Assembly (NCBI GenBank): GCA_003225465.1
Contig: QIAH01000347.1
Coordinates: 1-38,077, forward strand
Length of the DNA stretch: 38,077 nt
Origin: Acidobacteriota bacterium
GTDB taxonomy: Bacteria; Acidobacteriota; Terriglobia; Terriglobales; Acidobacteriaceae
Reading direction: 5' to 3'
The position numbers and the translations under genes are program-made. The notes below the pieces were generated by a model that did no database searches, was not told where the DNA came from, and saw only the letters and a program-made list of their open reading frames with translations. This document shows, piece by piece, positions 473 to 35,522 of this stretch (positions within the stretch are counted from its first letter, which is position 1; every line of letters begins with the position of its first letter).

Positions 473-1059
473 CAGAACCCTTTCATCTCCAGGTGCTTGC
501 GCAAGCGAGCCAGACAGCGGCCGCGAATGAATCCGATCGAGCCCGTGGCCAGCCCCAGTTCACTGGCAATTTCTGCGTAGGGCCGGACGGGGCTCTCAAA
601 AAAAAGCATGTGAATCATGCGCCCACAGCGTGCCGGCATCTGGGTAATGGCATCACGCAGGGCCTGTTCGTCCTCAAGTTGGACGAGCATCTCTTCGGGA
701 AGCGCCGCTGTGTCTTGGGCGTTTTCCGCGTCTTCGGGATCAAGCTCTGTGAGGCAGCTGGCAGCACGCTGGTAGCGCAGGCATTGGTGGTAGCAGGTTT
801 TCATTAACCATTTCGGCAATGCCCGGTGCTCGCGCAGTTGCGACAGGTTCGAGAGCAGATTCACGCACACTGCCTGAAAAATGTCTCGCGCATCCTGGTG
901 CATACCGAGCCGAACCGGGACCGAATAGATGAGGTTCTTGTACTTGTCAATCAGCGCAGACCAGGCTTCGGGGTCGCCGTCCAAACAGCCTTTGATCAGC
1001 TGCTCATCCGTCCGTGCCGGAGCCCGTTCCAGCTTTCGTCGTGCCGCCGTTCCCGTCAT
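472..1059 (-). CDS. ECF-type RNA polymerase sigma factor coupled to a peptide ABC transporter
   Basis: The protein has 195 residues, a normal ECF length. Sigma region 2 spans about residues 18-100 (DEQLIKGCLDGDPEAWSALI onward, with the helix QDARDIFQAVCVNLL where DDxxQEvFl is usual). Region 4 spans about 133-192 (MPARCGRMIHMLFF, then YAEIASELGLATGSIGFIRG as helix-turn-helix). It would direct RNA polymerase to a dedicated set of promoters. The ATG at 1059-1057 overlaps the stop of the substrate-binding protein gene by 4 bp (ATGA), and its own stop overlaps the start of the TPR gene. No anti-sigma gene is adjacent, unlike the second sigma gene at 13885-14481. Either the TPR protein or the transporter may take over the control role; that is inference. 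Confidence 0.88.
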   Translation of the reverse strand: MTGTAARRKLERAPARTDEQLIKGCLDGDPEAWSALIDKYKNLIYSVPVRLGMHQDARDIFQAVCVNLLSNLSQLREHRALPKWLMKTCYHQCLRYQRAASCLTELDPEDAENAQDTAALPEEMLVQLEDEQALRDAITQMPARCGRMIHMLFFESPVRPYAEIASELGLATGSIGFIRGRCLARLRKHLEMKGF

Positions 1060-8973: not shown

Positions 8974-9636
8974 ATGACTCATATCCGTTGCAGTGCTCTG
9001 CTGTTCGATATGGATGGAGTGCTCATCGACTCGACGCCGGCGGTAGCGCGGGTTTGGAGCCGATGGGCGCGGGCCCACGGTTTCCCGCCGGAGGAAGTCG
9101 TGGCCAAGGCACATGGACGCCCAAGCATCACGACCGTGCGTGAATACTTGCCCGACGCAGATCACGAAGCCGAGAACCGAATTGTGGAACGGAGCGAGAT
9201 CGAGGATCTCGAAGGCGTCGTGCCGCTGCCGGGTGCTCGCGAGTTGCTCGATCATCTGCCCAGAAACAGGTGGACGATCGTAACTTCGTCGACGCGACCA
9301 TTAGCCGAGGCCCGCTTGCGTGCCGCCGGTCTATCTATCCACGAAAAGCTCATCACCTCGAGTGACATCACCAACGGCAAGCCGCATCCGGAGCCCTATC
9401 TGAAAGCCGCGAGCATGCTGGGATATCCAGCTGCCGAGTGCGTGGTAGTGGAAGACGTGGCCGCCGGCATTGAGGCGGGCCGGGCAGCAGGCGCGAGAGT
9501 AATCGCTTTTCCGACGACCTGTAACGTGTCCGCACTGAAAGCAGCAGGCGCAAACTGGGTGCTCAGAAATTGCAGCGATATCAAAGTCGCTCAGCACGAA
9601 CCGGACCTCACACTAGATTTGCGGGATCATTCTTGA
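8974..9636 (+). CDS. HAD-superfamily phosphatase, sugar-/glycerol-phosphatase-like (subfamily IA)
   Basis: The 220-residue protein shows all four HAD motifs: FDMDGVLIDS (11-20) with nucleophile Asp12 and acid/base Asp14; TIVTSSTRP (101-109) with the motif II Ser/Thr; NGKPHPEPY (134-142) with Lys136; and VVVEDVAAGIEAGRAAGA with Glu160/Asp161. The layout, with a helical cap between motifs I and II, matches beta-phosphoglucomutase/DOG-type sugar phosphatases and bacterial glycerol-phosphate phosphatases. The exact substrate is not evident. I chose the ATG at 8974, where homology to motif I begins 10 residues later; the frame is open upstream to 8851 with no family resemblance. The 3' end overlaps the convergent TPR-CHAT gene by 10 bp. 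Confidence 0.88.
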   Translation: MTHIRCSALLFDMDGVLIDSTPAVARVWSRWARAHGFPPEEVVAKAHGRPSITTVREYLPDADHEAENRIVERSEIEDLEGVVPLPGARELLDHLPRNRWTIVTSSTRPLAEARLRAAGLSIHEKLITSSDITNGKPHPEPYLKAASMLGYPAAECVVVEDVAAGIEAGRAAGARVIAFPTTCNVSALKAAGANWVLRNCSDIKVAQHEPDLTLDLRDHS

Positions 9637-12158
9637 GAAGAGGGACCATGCTTGCCGGCTTGCGCAACTCTGACATTCGCTGTTGATCCGACCCGTGATC
9701 CGACGTAGAGCTGAAATGGCGCCCAATAAAAAGGATTGTGAAACGCACTCCCATGGAGAAGCGCTAGTTTTGCGGTACGCAAGGCTGCGTCCGGAGATCG
9801 ACCTTGCTCGATCTCTTCGTAGAATTTTCCCATGAGCTGTTCGGTGGAGGCATCGGTTGCCTCCCAAAGCGCGGCAATCACATGGTGCGCTCCGGCGCGC
9901 AGGAATGCCCAGGAAAGTCCAACCAGTCCTTCGCCCGAGTACGCCCGCTCTCCTGCACCGTAACACGAGGAAATAGTGACCAGTTGTGCCCGCAAGGGTC
10001 GCCGAACGATATCGCGCGCGTACAACTTGAACGAATCGTCTTCGGAGCTGCTTTTTGACAATACGATGGCCGAGTCCAGAGGGCTCAACCGGCTCGCCGT
10101 TCCATGCGCTACGAAGTGGATATAGGCAAACTGTCCCGGATCGCTGGAGAAGTAGGCGGCCGGCGTCGCTTGATTGCGGGCGAGAATCTCGCGCTCGTTC
10201 GGTGAGAAGTGAGCAGCTACGCTATCCATCTGCGCCGCGGCCTTAGGCAGTTCGGGGTATCGGTCGTTCGGCGCGATGCTGTTCCCGATGAGAAGCAACT
10301 TGCGTGTGCGTTTGACTGTACTTCCGGATGAAGATGCACGGAGTAATCGCAACGAACTTGCGTTTGCGATGGTGGCATCTTCGATCCAATAATGCAGTTT
10401 CGATTCTGACACGAGCAGGGTTTCGAAATTCAGGTTATTCAGACTTCCGTCTGGAATGATGTAGACGTTCGCGTTTTGCGGAAGAAATTCACGGGCGGGG
10501 GCGATCAATGTGTCATAGAGATAGCGGCCGTCGCGGTCCGCCGAGTCTAGAACGACCTGTGGTCCGCCGAGCGCCTTGCGATAGCGCTGCACGGCGGCAT
10601 CAATTTCGGAGCCGAAAGGAAGAGGATACAAGCTCGTTTTCTTCGGAGTAATAGCCCACAGATACGACTGCTTCTCGCCCAGCCAGTAAAACAGGATAAC
10701 CCCGCGGACCCGCTGTGCTACGTCCGTGGGATTTGGCACTGTCGATGACGCCATGCTGCCGGAGGGAATTCCCTTTGTCGGTCCCTGTAAGCCATCCGCC
10801 AAGGTTCGGGCGCGGCTGTAATCGGCGCAGCGGAGGGCCTCGTCCGGCTTGCCGCGTGCCACCAGGAAATGGATGTAGTCGTCATAGATGTGCGAGGCGT
10901 TGTTCGAAAAAGGAAGCTTGGCGTCATTGCGTTGCAGCGATGAACGTGCTGCTTCGAACGTGGCCAGCGCCGCGCGGTACGCGCGGTCGGCATCCTCTGG
11001 GCGCTGCTCGTCATCGTAGAGACGGGCCAGTGCGTGTTCGGATCTCCACTTCAGTGAGGCATTAACATGATTGTCGTGCTCCACCTCGTGGAATATGCGC
11101 TCCGCTTCGGCCACGTCGTGAAATCGAGCGGCAACCAAACCCTTGACGAGAAGAGGGTAGAGTTCGTCCAATCGGTTGTTGTCGGCTCGAGCGATGGCAA
11201 TGGCGTCGTCGGAATACTTGCTAGCCTGAGCCACTGCTCCACTCCCGACCGACACAAGTGCGAGCGCGCGTAAGGCGTTGTAGATATCTTCCCTGCCGCC
11301 AATCTTGGTAGCAAGATCAAGCGCCATGAGGTACGACTGTTTCGCGCGTCCAAAGTCACCACGTCGTGCGTAGACGTACCCGGCATTGGTGATCCATGAC
11401 AACTCGCCAATGATTCTTCCCATTTCACCGGCGCGCCTCGCGGCTTCGAGTGACAACTCCAGGGACCGCTCAGAGTCGCCTAGGTTGTAATAGGCCCAGC
11501 CCAAGTTGCCGAGAGCCGTTTGTGCTTCGCCATTGGCGCCCAGGGCGGTGGACGCCTGGTATGCGGCATCGGTCCAATCGATGGCTTCATCAAAGTGTTG
11601 CGCTTGTAGCGACGCCAGGCCCAGATTGAGAAGGGCAGTGACTTCCAGAAAACGATCATTGTGGGCGCGAGCGAATTGCAACGATCGCTCGAAGTAATTC
11701 CTCGCAGAATCAACCTGACCACGCTGAATGGCGAGAATGCCTTGGGCTCGAATTACGTCTCCGCAGGTTGCTTCAAGGGAAATTTGGCACGCCTCTATTG
11801 CTTGTCCAAGTTTTGCCTCCGCTGCGGGGAAATCGTGAAGTCTCGCGCGCGCGGTGCCCTCCAGCGCAAGGACCTCGAGCCAGGATTGTCTGTCCTCAGG
11901 ACGATCCGGCGGAGAACTGAGAAGCGTCAGCACTTGCTGATACATGCCTCGCCATAAGAGCGATTGGGCTTCCAGAATTCTGAACTTCCAAGACCATTGG
12001 GAATTGGAGTTTCGCAGTCGCTGGTATTCGCGATCAGCTTCTTCCTGACTCAGTTTAAGATCGCCACGGAGAAAGGCCTTGTAAGCGTGGCCAAAAGCGA
12101 CCTGCGGGTTCTCCTGCCGACGACAGGCGATCCCGCAGGTGATGATGAGGAGCAACAA
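9627..12158 (-). CDS. TPR-CHAT protein (caspase-like cysteine protease with N-terminal TPR array)
   Basis: From the TTG at 12158 the protein has 843 residues. A hydrophobic N-terminus ending in Cys (LLLLIITCGIAC) suggests a membrane anchor or lipoprotein. TPR-like helix pairs fill about residues 30-480 (for example ALGNLGWAYYNLGDSERSLE). The CHAT domain lies roughly from 520 to 825. Its predicted catalytic pair is intact: His685 in FVAHGTA and Cys732 in ISSCYGAG, followed by AYSGEGLVGLSWAFLRAGA and ALWEATD. CHAT proteins are clan CD cysteine peptidases related to caspases and separase. It is the last gene of the sigma/anti-sigma operon. The start is uncertain: no ATG exists, the TTG lacks a clear ribosome site, and the frame stays open to a GTG at 12479 inside the upstream gene. 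Confidence 0.9.
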   Translation of the reverse strand: MLLLIITCGIACRRQENPQVAFGHAYKAFLRGDLKLSQEEADREYQRLRNSNSQWSWKFRILEAQSLLWRGMYQQVLTLLSSPPDRPEDRQSWLEVLALEGTARARLHDFPAAEAKLGQAIEACQISLEATCGDVIRAQGILAIQRGQVDSARNYFERSLQFARAHNDRFLEVTALLNLGLASLQAQHFDEAIDWTDAAYQASTALGANGEAQTALGNLGWAYYNLGDSERSLELSLEAARRAGEMGRIIGELSWITNAGYVYARRGDFGRAKQSYLMALDLATKIGGREDIYNALRALALVSVGSGAVAQASKYSDDAIAIARADNNRLDELYPLLVKGLVAARFHDVAEAERIFHEVEHDNHVNASLKWRSEHALARLYDDEQRPEDADRAYRAALATFEAARSSLQRNDAKLPFSNNASHIYDDYIHFLVARGKPDEALRCADYSRARTLADGLQGPTKGIPSGSMASSTVPNPTDVAQRVRGVILFYWLGEKQSYLWAITPKKTSLYPLPFGSEIDAAVQRYRKALGGPQVVLDSADRDGRYLYDTLIAPAREFLPQNANVYIIPDGSLNNLNFETLLVSESKLHYWIEDATIANASSLRLLRASSSGSTVKRTRKLLLIGNSIAPNDRYPELPKAAAQMDSVAAHFSPNEREILARNQATPAAYFSSDPGQFAYIHFVAHGTASRLSPLDSAIVLSKSSSEDDSFKLYARDIVRRPLRAQLVTISSCYGAGERAYSGEGLVGLSWAFLRAGAHHVIAALWEATDASTEQLMGKFYEEIEQGRSPDAALRTAKLALLHGSAFHNPFYWAPFQLYVGSRVGSTANVRVAQAGKHGPSSQE

Positions 12159-12169
12159 GAAAGAAAGAC

Positions 12170-13138
12170 TTAGGGTGAGGTCTGACCGTTGGTCTTCGAC
12201 TGCCCAACCTTGACGCTGCCACTTCCCACGCAGCCCAATTCCATGTTGAGCATGGTTACTTCGAAGTAATTGCTCATCGAAGACGGCTGGTGGTGTCCAT
12301 TGTGCGGTTCCGGGTTTGGACGCCGGAATTCGTTCGCGGCTGTTGCCGCTTCGAGGCCCACCTCGACCTCGCCGAACGACACAGCTCCAAAGTCCCGAAG
12401 CACCAATACGTTTTCGATGATCTCCAGGCCGGGTATCTGTTTCTCGTGTTCGACTTTGATGCTTTTGACCAACGAACACGTAATTTTCTTTTCTCCCTCA
12501 CGGTTGGGAAGCCGGTCGATTTCCCCAAGCCTGTTATCGTACTGCTTCTTAACCGCTTCCGGAAGGAATCCGCAGTTGGCTATACGGTCAACTCGTTTGC
12601 GTGTATCGCGCAGGAAGTCCATGTTGGTCAAATACGATTGGTCCCCTGTTGGCTTGTCTCCACAAACATTAAGGTCGAGAGTAACGGTGATCGGAAAGCC
12701 ACAGAGTCTCAGGTTCACGAACTGCGTGCCAAGAAACGTTACACGTGGCACGTGGCCGTGCTCGTCTCGTGTATGCTCGGTCGAAACTTGCGAGACCACG
12801 CGATCGGCAGTAAGGATCTCGAAAACGTTCAGCCCTTCCATGACCGAGGTCGATAGCGTTACCCATGCCTTGTGTTTAAGGCTCTCCCCACCGGATACTC
12901 GAGTGAATCCATTTCTGAAGTAAACGAGCCCCTCGATGCTGACATCTTCGAGAAACCGGGTGAGATGGCCGCCTCGTTCATTCTTAAGTGCGACCCGGGC
13001 ATGTTTCTCAATTCTCTGCTCGATCGGGGTCTTTAATTCTCCGCTGAGCACATGGGCTTCCGCGTGGAACTGGTGCGTATATATCACGTTGTTGGTTGTG
13101 TTTTTTGCTGCGTTCGACGTTACGGACGGTGTCGCCAT
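12170..13138 (-). CDS. Protein of unknown function in the sigma/anti-sigma/CHAT operon
   Basis: The 322-residue protein has no signal peptide and no membrane segment. I recognise no named domain. The central part looks like a compact beta-rich domain (LEDVSIEGLVYFRNGFTRV, WVTLSTSVMEGLNVFEILTA, VTFLGTQFVNLRLCGFPITV). A His/Asn/Pro-rich linker near residue 280 (PEPHNGHHQPSS) leads to a C-terminal strand and a flexible Gly/Ser/Thr tail. The ATG at 13138 follows GGGGTGA at good spacing; an in-frame start at 13201 would overlap the anti-sigma gene by 41 bp. It begins 22 bp after the anti-sigma gene and ends 11 bp before the assigned protease start. That position makes it a candidate substrate, regulator or effector of the CHAT protease, which is inference only. 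Confidence 0.8.
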   Translation of the reverse strand: MATPSVTSNAAKNTTNNVIYTHQFHAEAHVLSGELKTPIEQRIEKHARVALKNERGGHLTRFLEDVSIEGLVYFRNGFTRVSGGESLKHKAWVTLSTSVMEGLNVFEILTADRVVSQVSTEHTRDEHGHVPRVTFLGTQFVNLRLCGFPITVTLDLNVCGDKPTGDQSYLTNMDFLRDTRKRVDRIANCGFLPEAVKKQYDNRLGEIDRLPNREGEKKITCSLVKSIKVEHEKQIPGLEIIENVLVLRDFGAVSFGEVEVGLEAATAANEFRRPNPEPHNGHHQPSSMSNYFEVTMLNMELGCVGSGSVKVGQSKTNGQTSP

Positions 13139-13160
13139 ATTATTCACCCCACTGTGTGAG

Positions 13161-13832
13161 CTATTGCTGAAGTTGCAGTTCAAACGAAGTTCGACCGACA
13201 TCTCTGGTTTCGCCGGATGAGGTAATTCCGTGGACCGCTAAGGTATAGGTGCCCGATTCCCGATTGCTGTCCGGAACCCGCACGGGCCACTGGTCCTGAC
13301 CGGAGTTGGCCGGAAAATCAAGCGACCATTCTAGCTTTCCGGCTGGGTTATACAAGTCTGTCTTGTAGCGGGCGTAGGAGCTTTCAGGGGGGATTCTGAC
13401 AAACAAAAGGAAACCTTTGCCGGACGGCACAGTGATGACGGGTCCCCCCGCCCCCCAGGTGCCTACATTCACAGAAGCCCAAGGCATCACCTGCGGGCTG
13501 TGTAATAAGGTCTGCATCTTCGGGTAAGTAACCAGGTTCTGATAGGCCACGATGGCAATCAGCGCTGCCATGACCGGCACGGCGAACGTTGGACGCAGCC
13601 AGGAAAGCCAGGTCTCGCGGCCGTGAGCCGTCTTTTCCACGAGTACCGGACCAGCGGACCGGGAGAGCACATTCTTGCTCTGCTCGACCAGCATGGCGGC
13701 TGCGCGCACGTCGAGCGCACAGTCCAGACAATCGAAAAGGTGCTCTTCAAACTGATCGAGTTGCTCGGGGTCCAACTCGTTCAGCAAGTACCTCTCGGTT
13801 GCCTTCAGACGCACTGCGTCGCTGTGGTCCAT
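13161..13832 (-). CDS. Membrane anti-sigma factor with zinc-binding (zf-HC2/ZAS) domain
   Basis: The 223-residue protein begins MDHSDAVRLKATERYLLNEL. It carries the anti-sigma zinc motif H31-x3-C35-x2-C38 in EEHLFDCLDC, followed by a linker and one membrane segment at about 81-103 (PTFAVPVMAALIAIVAYQNL). The rest, about 105-223, is a predicted extracytoplasmic beta-sandwich (VITVPSGKGFLLFVRIP, GTYTLAVHGI). ZAS proteins hold their cognate ECF sigma factor inactive at the membrane until a signal arrives. The ATG at 13832 has GGGGAG upstream; the longer frame to 13928 overlaps the sigma gene and shows no conserved sequence. It lies 52 bp after the sigma gene and is probably its specific inhibitor. 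Confidence 0.87.
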   Translation of the reverse strand: MDHSDAVRLKATERYLLNELDPEQLDQFEEHLFDCLDCALDVRAAAMLVEQSKNVLSRSAGPVLVEKTAHGRETWLSWLRPTFAVPVMAALIAIVAYQNLVTYPKMQTLLHSPQVMPWASVNVGTWGAGGPVITVPSGKGFLLFVRIPPESSYARYKTDLYNPAGKLEWSLDFPANSGQDQWPVRVPDSNRESGTYTLAVHGITSSGETRDVGRTSFELQLQQ

Positions 13833-13884
13833 CTGGACTGCTCCCCCTCTTACAACAAGTAGTGAAAGCGGAGCGGAAATCGTT

Positions 13885-14481
13885 TCATACCTTACCGGCG
13901 GCCGTGACGCCGGGCGGCCTGCGCTCAATATTCTTTAGATACAGTGATTTAAAGGACTGCTTGGCGCGATGCAGCAGCACGCGCAAGTAGTCCCGATCGA
14001 CGCCGAAATCCCGGCAGACGTCATCTTTATCGCGCTCTTCCAAAAACACCTCGCGGAGAATGCGCCGATCCCGCTCGGGCATTTCGTCCAGAATTTCACG
14101 GACTTTCTCTTCCATCTGCTTGGCGGCGACTGCACCGAGCACATCCATTACCGGATCGGGCAACTCGTTCTGAGGCTCGTCGTCAAGTGAGTCGGAGCGG
14201 GAAGAAGACCGGTAATGTTCGAGCAAAACATTGTTGCAGATCGAGTTTACGAAGGCGCCCAGCCTTTCCGGTTGGCGGATTCCACCCGGACTCCGCAGCG
14301 CAGCGAATACCCGCACGAAGGTTTCCTGGCGAACATCCTCGATGGCCTGGGGGGAGCGCAGACGCGCTCTCAGTTTGAGCTGGATCAGTTCGCTGAAATA
14401 GGCAACAAAATGCTCCTGCGTCCGGAAGTCCCCGGAACGTAGACGCTCCACGTAGGGTGCATCAAACGCCTGAAATTGCAA
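13885..14481 (-). CDS. ECF-type sigma factor, first gene of the CHAT operon
   Basis: The 198-residue protein contains region 2 at about 22-92 (FVAYFSELIQLKLRARLRSP, then AIEDVRQETFVRVFAAL, the core-binding and -10 recognition helices) and region 4 at about 128-185 (LDEMPERDRRILREVFLEER, then DDVCRDFGVDRDYLRVLLHR as helix-turn-helix). The start is TTG at 14481 with GAGG seven bases upstream. The adjacent zinc-binding anti-sigma gene indicates membrane-signal control. Transcription runs leftward through anti-sigma, unknown protein and TPR-CHAT protease. ECF genes commonly activate their own promoter; I could not assign a clear ECF promoter upstream. Confidence 0.9.
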   Translation of the reverse strand: MQFQAFDAPYVERLRSGDFRTQEHFVAYFSELIQLKLRARLRSPQAIEDVRQETFVRVFAALRSPGGIRQPERLGAFVNSICNNVLLEHYRSSSRSDSLDDEPQNELPDPVMDVLGAVAAKQMEEKVREILDEMPERDRRILREVFLEERDKDDVCRDFGVDRDYLRVLLHRAKQSFKSLYLKNIERRPPGVTAAGKV

Positions 14482-14579
14482 GAGCTTGCCTCGCGGGATG
14501 CAGGAGTGCGAAATATCTTACACCGAAAGCAGGCATCTCCCGAATTTGGCATATAGGCGCGCTATGGCAGAAGAGAGGA

Positions 14580-14680: not shown

Positions 14681-14953
14681 GTGAACCGGATGATCATGAC
14701 GATTCGCGGCCAGCAAAGAAGACAGAGGTATTCGGCATCTGGGACCTTTCTCCAACCAGACGAAGGTCCCGACCGATTGTTTCAGCTGACCATGCTCCGG
14801 GCCTTGTTACTTCCACCTCGATCACGCGACGTGTTTGTCCTCACCGAGATGCATGGATACACACTGCCCGAGGTCGCCAGGGCTTTAGGAATGAGCAAGG
14901 ACGCAGTAAAGAAGCACTTGCGGCGGGCACAGCGCGAAGTACAAGGCGTGTAA
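14681..14953 (+). CDS. Stand-alone sigma-70 region 4 protein (possible remnant)
   Basis: The 90-residue product carries a full sigma region 4: LFQLTMLRALLLPPRSRDVF (33-52) then TLPEVARALGMSKDAVKKHL (61-80) as helix-turn-helix. Sigma region 2 is absent. The first 30 residues are basic and show no domain. The start could be GTG 14681 or the ATGs at 14690 and 14696; none has a convincing ribosome site, and the frame is closed at 14648-14650. A different frame from the ATG at 14647 gives a plausible soluble N-terminus for about 35 residues, so a frameshifted longer protein is possible. It is either a small DNA-binding regulator or the tail of a decayed ECF gene. A T-rich run follows the stop at about 14971. 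Confidence 0.6.
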   Translation: MNRMIMTIRGQQRRQRYSASGTFLQPDEGPDRLFQLTMLRALLLPPRSRDVFVLTEMHGYTLPEVARALGMSKDAVKKHLRRAQREVQGV

Positions 14954-34262: not shown

Positions 34263-34296
34263 TTTTGAAAGGGAAGCATCAGGAGAGGGGAACTCC

Positions 34297-34368
34297 AGGA
34301 CTTGTCATTCCGAGCACTCTAGGACTTGTCATCCCGAGCACTCTAAGGTTTGTCATTCCGAACACTCT
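34297..34368 (+). repeat. Three tandem copies of a 24-nt repeat
   Basis: Units at 34297-34320, 34321-34344 and 34345-34368 share the core TTGTCATTCCGAGCACTCT, with one substitution in the second and several in the third. They lie between ada and the left end of the IS element. The core is like dispersed repeats seen between genes in acidobacterial genomes. Confidence 0.8.
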
Positions 34369-34370
34369 AA

Positions 34371-35522
34371 GGAACCTCTGAAGAACTCTCCAATCCACAG
34401 GCTGAGCGGGTAAGGTGTAAGTCGAGGTGAAAAGGCGAGTGCGACAACAAACTCTGGCGACGCAGACGGGGTTCGAGAAGTACGGGCGGAAGACGAAGCG
34501 GGAGCGTTTTCTCGAAGAGATGGAACAGATCGTGCCGTGGGCGGAGTTACAGGCGCTGATCGAACCGCACTATCCGAAGGGAGAGAACGGACGGCCTCCG
34601 GTGGGCATGAGCATCATGCTGCGGGTGTACCTTCTGCAGCAGTGGTTCAATCTGAGCGATCCGGGGGCGGAGGATGCGCTGTATGAATCGCCGGTGCTGC
34701 GGCGCTTTGTGGGAATCGATCTGGGGCGGGCGCCGGTGCCGGACGAGAGCACCATCCTCGGGTTCCGTCACCTGCTGGAGAAGCACGAACTGGGTGGGGC
34801 GATGCTGAACGCGGTGAACCAATATCTGGAGAGCCGGGGCATCCGCATCACCACCGGGACGATCGTGGATGCGACCATTATTCATGCGCCCTCGTCGACC
34901 AAGAACCGGAACGGGGAGCGGGACCCAGAGATGCACCAGACGCGCAAGGGAAAGCAGTGGTACTTCGGGCTGAAGGCACACATCGGAGTGGACTCCAAGC
35001 AAGGCCATGTTCATTCGTTGTGCACGTCGGCGGCTTCGGTGGGGGACAAGCATATGCTGCCGGATCTGTTGCACGGCGAGGAGCGCAAGGTGTGGGGCGA
35101 CGGTGGATATCAAGGACAGGGAGAAGCCATCCGGCAGGCGGCGCCGCGAGCGCAGGATATGACCAGCCGGAGAGTGCACTACAAGAACTTTGTGGACGAG
35201 TTACAAAAAGCCAAGAACCGGGTGAAGGCCAGAGTGCGAGCGAAGGTGGAACATCCGTTTCGGATTCTGAAGCGCATCTTCGGTTTCGAGAAGGTGAGAT
35301 ACCGAGGGATTCAGAAGAACCATCATCGGCTGTGCGCCAGCTTTGCGCTGGTGAACCTGTATCTGCACCGCAAACGGCTGACGGTGGCGAGGGCGTAGTG
35401 TCTCTGAGAGCCGCGTGAATGGCGGGTCCCGATAAGATCGCAAGCAATACAGGGGAATTCGTGGCCTGTGCAGGTCTGGAATTCCCGCCGTCTTCAAAAT
35501 TGATGGTTGCTCAGAGGTTCCC
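34371..35522 (+). mobile_element. IS5-family insertion sequence, intact, 1152 bp
   Basis: The element is bounded by imperfect terminal inverted repeats. The left end begins GGAACCTCTGAAGAAC, and the right end (35507-35522) is the complement of GGAACCTCTGAGCAAC, agreeing at 16 of the first 20 positions. Flanking bases TAA on the left and TAG on the right suggest a 3-bp target, though they are not identical. It carries one transposase gene reading rightward. A hairpin, GGGAATTC (35453-35460) with GAATTCCC (35479-35486), follows the gene. Insertion lies directly against the 24-nt repeats between ada and the GH20 gene. Confidence 0.82.
34427..35398 (+). CDS. IS5-family DDE transposase
   Basis: The 323-residue enzyme appears complete. 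The N-terminal DNA-binding region (PPVGMSIMLRVYLLQQWFNL) precedes the DDE core: Asp148 in IVDATIIHAP, Asp225 in VWGDGGYQG, and Glu275 in VRAKVEHPFRILK, the IS5-type Y/R-E-K region. It catalyses cutting and joining of the element ends. The GTG at 34427 is the likely start. No frameshift or stop interrupts the frame, so the element may still be mobile. Confidence 0.93.
   Translation: MKRRVRQQTLATQTGFEKYGRKTKRERFLEEMEQIVPWAELQALIEPHYPKGENGRPPVGMSIMLRVYLLQQWFNLSDPGAEDALYESPVLRRFVGIDLGRAPVPDESTILGFRHLLEKHELGGAMLNAVNQYLESRGIRITTGTIVDATIIHAPSSTKNRNGERDPEMHQTRKGKQWYFGLKAHIGVDSKQGHVHSLCTSAASVGDKHMLPDLLHGEERKVWGDGGYQGQGEAIRQAAPRAQDMTSRRVHYKNFVDELQKAKNRVKARVRAKVEHPFRILKRIFGFEKVRYRGIQKNHHRLCASFALVNLYLHRKRLTVARA

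Follow-up and report, generated by a model that had tools for sequence, protein, structure and literature searches.

The present study analyzes a four-gene operon in a window of 38,077 nucleotides (nt) from an Acidobacteriota bacterium (contig QIAH01000347.1), the window being the whole stretch of DNA that was analysed. The genes lie on the minus strand in the order extracytoplasmic function (ECF) sigma factor, anti-sigma factor, a protein of 322 residues and a TPR-CHAT protein, and an original prediction made from the letters of the window, which had read four leftward genes in this way, was confirmed by family matches. Patterns detected across related genomes establish the unit as a real conserved module whose linkage is far above chance. 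It is quite possible, and is our tentative preference, that the four genes form one envelope signalling unit in which CHAT, acting as a site-1 protease, cleaves the anti-sigma factor outside the membrane and so frees the sigma factor. We arrive at this reading because of the linkage, the intact catalytic dyad, the positive N side of the CHAT membrane segment, the Ig-like domain of the anti-sigma factor on the outside, and the co-divergence of that domain with CHAT. The operon is apparently undescribed, no publication on it having been found in the open-access literature searched, of which coverage is incomplete.

Conservation of the four-gene unit

Searches of the 249 genomes of the order matched the 322-residue protein in 87 genomes and the anti-sigma factor in 89, with 86 genomes common to both; the four discordant genomes were G236, G191 and two with weak matches to the zinc finger only, and G236 had all four genes once it was searched with profiles. 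Among 81 loci (80 fetched genome regions and the window) the order sigma, anti-sigma, 322-residue protein, CHAT was kept in 75, the six exceptions being G117, G191 and four genomes without an adjacent sigma gene. The original prediction would have fallen had CHAT and the sigma/anti-sigma pair not been linked in related genomes, and their linkage is borne out by these 75 loci and 86 shared genomes. Flanking genes were not shared (the commonest flank family occurred in 11 of 77 loci), and because the flanks differ while gene order is conserved, the unit is kept together despite changing surroundings. A search for plasmid carriage of the unit gave no match. The same arrangement was found in 80 loci of a named genome collection, from Acidobacteriaceae, Terracidiphilus, Granulicella, Edaphobacter, Sulfotelmatobacter and others, by a profile scan, a scan with the single window protein having given no match. 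Cultured carriers include Terracidiphilus gabretensis S55, Granulicella sp. S190 and Edaphobacter lichenicola. In a phylum-wide sample there were matches in 24 of 396 genomes, eight of them outside the family of the window, and the complete four-gene unit was present in five other families of the phylum.

Two departures from the usual order may be described here. Loci L105, L107, L109 and L110, all of one genus, lack an adjacent sigma gene and have a rearranged gene order. At G191 (L232, 7909-13443) the 322-residue gene and CHAT stand behind a different ECF sigma factor (PF07638) and a different membrane protein of 366 residues with TPR repeats; the sigma pair has here been exchanged in nature.

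Domains, topology and co-divergence of the four proteins

The sigma factor scored 51.7 bits against TIGR02937 (cut-off 42.9) and fell just under the cut-offs of the Pfam models for regions 2 and 4. In relatives its start codon was TTG in 52 cases, GTG in 13 and ATG in two, as if low translation were favoured. The anti-sigma factor matched zf-HC2 (24.4 bits, cut-off 22.2), and its cytosolic domain carries the motif HX3CX2C of zinc-binding anti-sigma (ZAS) factors, with E29, H31, F33, C35 and C38 invariant among 70 relatives. A single membrane or stalk helix (residues 75-111) appears in the model, so that the zinc motif and lone membrane segment of the original prediction both held. The C-terminal periplasmic domain had Ig/FN3-like matches in the PDB and in the model would lie on the same side of the membrane as CHAT. 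The two proteins fit the pattern of an ECF sigma factor with a ZAS anti-sigma factor, and binding and inhibition of the sigma factor by the anti-sigma factor are predicted. About 45 nt ahead of the sigma start stands the element TGnTATACT, exact in 39 of 74 relatives versus 3.1 in shuffles and inexact in the window, which appears to resemble the extended -10 element of a housekeeping (sigma70-like) sigma factor. No ECF-type promoter motif was found upstream of the operon, and an ECF-type autoregulatory promoter was rejected, the sigma70-like element being there instead.

The His and Cys of the CHAT dyad were intact in all 79 CHAT sequences aligning there, and both motifs recur in most CHAT copies from outside the family. 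Because the dyad residues are intact CHAT would be a working protease, and their conservation supports an active enzyme; the positions given in the original prediction, His685 and Cys732, are exact if CHAT starts at TTG 12158 and has 843 residues. TPR and CHAT were the only domains found in the protein. Missing from the original prediction was an N-terminal hydrophobic or lipobox segment, which hydropathy places immediately ahead of the TPR region in 77 of 80 CHAT proteins; a Cys stands close to its end in 61 of the 80, the lipobox is strict in 32, and in 69 the N side is more positively charged than the C side. Out-of-family CHAT copies begin with ordinary lipoprotein-like signal sequences. 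By the positive-inside rule the positive N side means that TPR and CHAT would face the periplasm, and the protein is probably periplasmic or membrane-anchored, outside the inner membrane.

The 322-residue protein had been called unknown, which stands insofar as Pfam gave no match and falls insofar as 53 of 63 family members matched the NCBIfam model choice_anch_P (NF040603; best E value 2.2e-12), the window copy doing so weakly (E value 0.0079, 16.2 bits, under the 27-bit cut-off). By these matches the protein appears to be a divergent choice_anch_P relative. Its predicted fold has a local distance difference test score (pLDDT) of 90.6 and is rich in long strands, and the model had no significant fold match in the PDB; a gasdermin or porin fold was considered and likewise gave no significant match. 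The family has a conserved C-terminus, NGxTxP. No hydrophobic N-terminus or signal peptide was present in aligned relatives, because of which the protein would be cytosolic by sequence, unlike the exported, anchored proteins of the choice_anch_P kind.

Co-divergence of the parts was analyzed by partial correlations of pairwise distances in 71 genomes and on a fixed tree of 119 branches, with values given here in that order. The sigma factor co-diverged with the zinc domain (0.44 and 0.43), the contact expected in such pairs. The periplasmic domain of the anti-sigma factor co-diverged with CHAT (0.34 and 0.42), less so with TPR (0.23 and 0.04) and not with its own zinc domain (-0.03 and 0.01), and the core of the 322-residue protein gave 0.46 and 0.15 with TPR. 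The link between CHAT and the periplasmic domain thus appears in both analyses, and that between the 322-residue core and TPR is weaker. There was no co-divergence of the 322-residue protein with the CHAT domain by distances (-0.28 and 0.06) or on the fixed tree (0.05 and -0.02).

The overlap of the CHAT gene with its neighbour

The CHAT gene probably starts at GTG 12479, which sits 310 nt inside the 322-residue gene and would give a protein of 950 residues. In 57 of 79 loci (20 genera) the CHAT reading frame extends, in the -1 frame, over at least 60 codons at the end of the 322-residue gene. Over the last 70 codons of that gene in 58 overlapping genomes, the -1 frame contained 3 stops versus 163 expected from synonymous shuffling, with stops in the other (+1) frame of the same codons, the control, matching expectation; with one genome per genus there were 2 stops versus 56.0 expected, and 75 versus 64.7 in the control frame. 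The depletion fades beyond 80-100 codons, stops rising towards expectation upstream of the internal start, and where it fades an in-frame ATG or GTG stands on a conserved CSLV motif, GTG 12479 in the window. At this internal start ATG was present in 37 of 52 cases versus 11.8 expected, and ATG or GTG in 47 versus 33.8. Many genomes have no ATG, GTG or TTG near the hydrophobic segment.

An alternative explanation could be that CHAT starts at TTG 12158, which is present in the window, and that the overlap stays open as a side effect of codon usage. This would account for the lack of Shine-Dalgarno excess at the internal start (24 versus 19.7), for synonymous third positions that change as fast inside the overlap as outside it, and for the 22 of 79 loci without the long overlap, which is missing in some lineages and in outgroups. 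It would not account for the near absence of stops beside a clean control frame, the same result with one genome per genus, the return of stops upstream of the internal start, the excess of ATG there, or the genomes with no start codon near the segment, and we consider it very unlikely. The frequent lack of a start near the segment suggested a programmed -1 frameshift fusing the 322-residue protein to CHAT, but variable codons ahead of the stop and the strong preference for ATG at the internal start led to its rejection as the leading explanation. A CTG start at the C-terminal Cys codon was also rejected, as that codon is absent in 7 overlapping genomes and the openness reaches far upstream. 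With no slowing at third positions and no Shine-Dalgarno excess, selection on the internally started frame would therefore keep it open with a start and leave its residues nearly free. Constraint at the amino-acid level on the CHAT tail was rejected on the unslowed third positions; the tail within the overlap shows a slight excess of hydrophilicity and positive charge over expectation. For a CHAT gene starting at GTG 12479, the most economical reading of the overlap would be translational coupling of the 322-residue protein with the membrane-anchored CHAT.

Proposed mechanism and relation to known systems

In the site-1 reading, the zinc domain of the anti-sigma factor would tether the ECF sigma factor to the inner membrane, the Ig-like domain being exposed to the periplasm, where the TPR and CHAT domains would also lie, anchored via the N-terminal segment. 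An envelope signal would be read through the TPR scaffold, upon which CHAT would cut the anti-sigma factor outside the membrane, a site-1 cut comparable to that of DegS on RseA, and general intramembrane and cytosolic proteases would finish the anti-sigma factor and free the sigma factor. The 322-residue protein, co-produced with CHAT via the overlapping genes, would most likely regulate or dock to the TPR part. Several observations weigh against this reading, chief among them that a 322-residue protein apparently lacking an export signal leaves its meeting with a periplasmic TPR region unexplained. Sigma and CHAT also co-diverge (0.54 on the fixed tree), which direct contact cannot explain, and all these values are correlations from which shared ancestry is only partly removed. 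Finally, G117 has no CHAT, the TPR protein nearby not being one, and four genomes keep the anti-sigma factor, the 322-residue gene and CHAT with no sigma gene adjacent.

Other roles for CHAT could be proposed. It is possible that CHAT is the output, a periplasmic TPR-CHAT executor of envelope remodelling or killing whose production or partners are set by the sigma/anti-sigma pair, the anti-sigma factor itself remaining uncut. Genes next to ECF sigma factors are often under their control, the CHAT gene closes the operon, and the unit is patchy as accessory systems are (87 of 249 genomes); the output reading would not account for a housekeeping-like upstream element where no ECF-type motif was found, for the co-divergence of CHAT with the outside domain of the anti-sigma factor, or for the failure to match known defence proteins other than through TPR, and we regard it as unlikely. 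An anti-phage defence system as such was also considered and gave only the generic TPR match. That co-divergence reflects association rather than cleavage, and that TPR regions are binding scaffolds, would suit a TPR-CHAT sensor that binds the anti-sigma factor uncut and directs its catalysis at another substrate, e.g. itself, but the His and Cys kept in all 79 sequences and in most out-of-family copies argue for needed catalysis, and we give this only a slim chance.

The original prediction was modelled on Craspase, the CASP system of Cas7-11, the TPR-CHAT protein Csx29, Csx30 and a sigma factor (PMC10028731, PMC9729208). A cytosolic chain of that kind, in which CHAT cleaves the 322-residue protein to release or tune the sigma factor, is consistent with a neighbourhood resembling Csx29/Csx30/sigma (PMC10028731, PMC9729208), with the translational interlocking of the 322-residue gene and CHAT and with the co-divergence of the 322-residue core with TPR by distances. 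It is nevertheless improbable, as the topology of CHAT points outwards, a dedicated ZAS anti-sigma factor is present, the 322-residue protein and the CHAT domain do not co-diverge, and a low-confidence loop of the 322-residue model (265-289) is missing in many relatives. Of the two substrates originally suggested for CHAT, cleavage of the anti-sigma factor fits the topology and co-divergence, and the 322-residue protein in the role of Csx30 does not; the cytosolic arrangement was not upheld, with TPR-CHAT predicted to be periplasmic, the 322-residue protein lacking an export signal and the anti-sigma factor being an ordinary ZAS membrane protein.

Like Craspase, the operon encodes a TPR-CHAT protease with a His/Cys dyad beside an ECF-type sigma factor and its inhibitor, and a protease-to-sigma step is proposed for both. 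It differs in that no CRISPR array occurs within the window and in that the inhibitor is a ZAS membrane anti-sigma factor rather than Csx30, to which, or to anything like it, no relation of the 322-residue family was found in the searches made. No cas-like protein was found among the open reading frames (ORFs) near the operon whose families were scanned. The Craspase TPR-CHAT is soluble and cytosolic, whereas CHAT here has a predicted N-terminal membrane or lipobox segment, and the choice_anch_P-like gene overlapping it is an addition. On these grounds the operon is not Craspase or type III-E. It is doubtful, though worth proposing, that it is an envelope-facing, CRISPR-free functional counterpart of Craspase, in which a periplasmic TPR-CHAT caspase-fold protease would turn on an ECF sigma factor across Acidobacteriota by cleaving a membrane anti-sigma factor. 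The protease would be licensed by a choice_anch_P-like regulator seated on its TPR scaffold, the two being tied together by a 200-300 nt out-of-phase gene overlap.

In the CalpL-CalpT-CalpS system of type III CRISPR a protease, an anti-sigma factor and a sigma factor are encoded together, as here. CalpL differs in being a Lon-SAVED protease, which lacks a CHAT domain and is switched in the cytosol by cyclic oligoadenylate. CalpL of type III CRISPR has been described (PMC11417357). The DegS-RseA-RpoE system (PMC10028731) shares a membrane anti-sigma factor with a periplasmic domain and an outside protease as first cutter, which is predicted here; the present protease is a CHAT cysteine protease with TPR and CHAT domains only, encoded in the sigma operon, unlike the trypsin-like PDZ serine protease DegS. 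ECF54 sigma factors are described as having CHAT, subtilase or carboxypeptidase neighbours, suggested proteolytic control and no anti-sigma factor (PMC8999054), so that a conserved CHAT neighbour of an ECF sigma factor is common to both, whereas a ZAS anti-sigma factor is present in 75 of the 81 loci here. HetF of Anabaena, which combines CHAT and TPR domains with one membrane segment (PMC8406250), illustrates that CHAT proteins can be membrane proteins; unlike the present unit it is a cell-division and heterocyst protein with another domain order and no sigma operon.

Table 1. Positions in the window of the operon genes and of features within and upstream of them.
Feature	Position	Strand	Details
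ECF sigma factor gene	13885..14481	-	198 residues, TTG start; TIGR02937 E value 7e-14
Anti-sigma factor gene	13161..13832	-	223 residues; PF13490; alignment of 70 relatives; model pLDDT 86.9
322-residue beta-rich protein gene	12170..13138	-	Putative divergent choice_anch_P relative (NF040603); model pLDDT 90.6
TPR-CHAT gene	9627..12479	-	950 residues from GTG 12479 (probable start); PF12770 E value 1e-53
TPR-CHAT gene, alternative start TTG 12158	9627..12158	-	843 residues
Overlap of TPR-CHAT gene with 3' end of 322-residue gene, out-of-phase (-1)	12170..12479	-	Stop depletion
TPR-CHAT hydrophobic segment, lipobox-like end (LSLSFLLLLIITCGIAC)	12123..12173	-	Alignment of 80 CHAT N-termini
Catalytic His codon, His792 of 950 (His685 of 843)	10104..10106	-	Conserved 79/79
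Catalytic Cys codon, Cys839 of 950 (Cys732 of 843)	9963..9965	-	Conserved 79/79
TGTAAGAT, weak variant of extended -10-like TGnTATACT	14515..14522	-	Element conserved upstream of sigma in relatives

Elsewhere in the window, a 90-residue ORF divergent from the operon (14681-14953, plus strand) is a fragment of sigma region 4 by its match (PF08281, E value 1e-11) and would be an orphan or broken ECF gene adjoining the ECF operon. A second match to sigma region 2 lies about 13 kb from the operon (760-954, minus strand), and a 24-nt unit is repeated three times at 34292-34369, directly ahead of an IS5-like transposase ORF (34427-35398). The same genome carries a second CHAT gene (L001, G000:C338, 73-2874) followed by a 207-residue protein that has no Pfam match and carries the zinc-like motif EHLGSSCPEC; this may be a further pairing of CHAT with an anti-sigma-like protein.

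If the site-1 reading is true, CHAT proteases would switch sigma factors outside CRISPR, and Craspase would be one instance of a wider logic. Membrane-anchored CHAT proteins would gain their first substrate class, and regulated proteolysis a new type of site-1 protease, a cysteine protease encoded with its anti-sigma factor. In the conserved long out-of-phase overlap, selection to keep a second frame open leaves a signature that can be measured, and cases replicated as well as this one are rare. Cultivable soil bacteria carry the unit, which makes the question directly testable.

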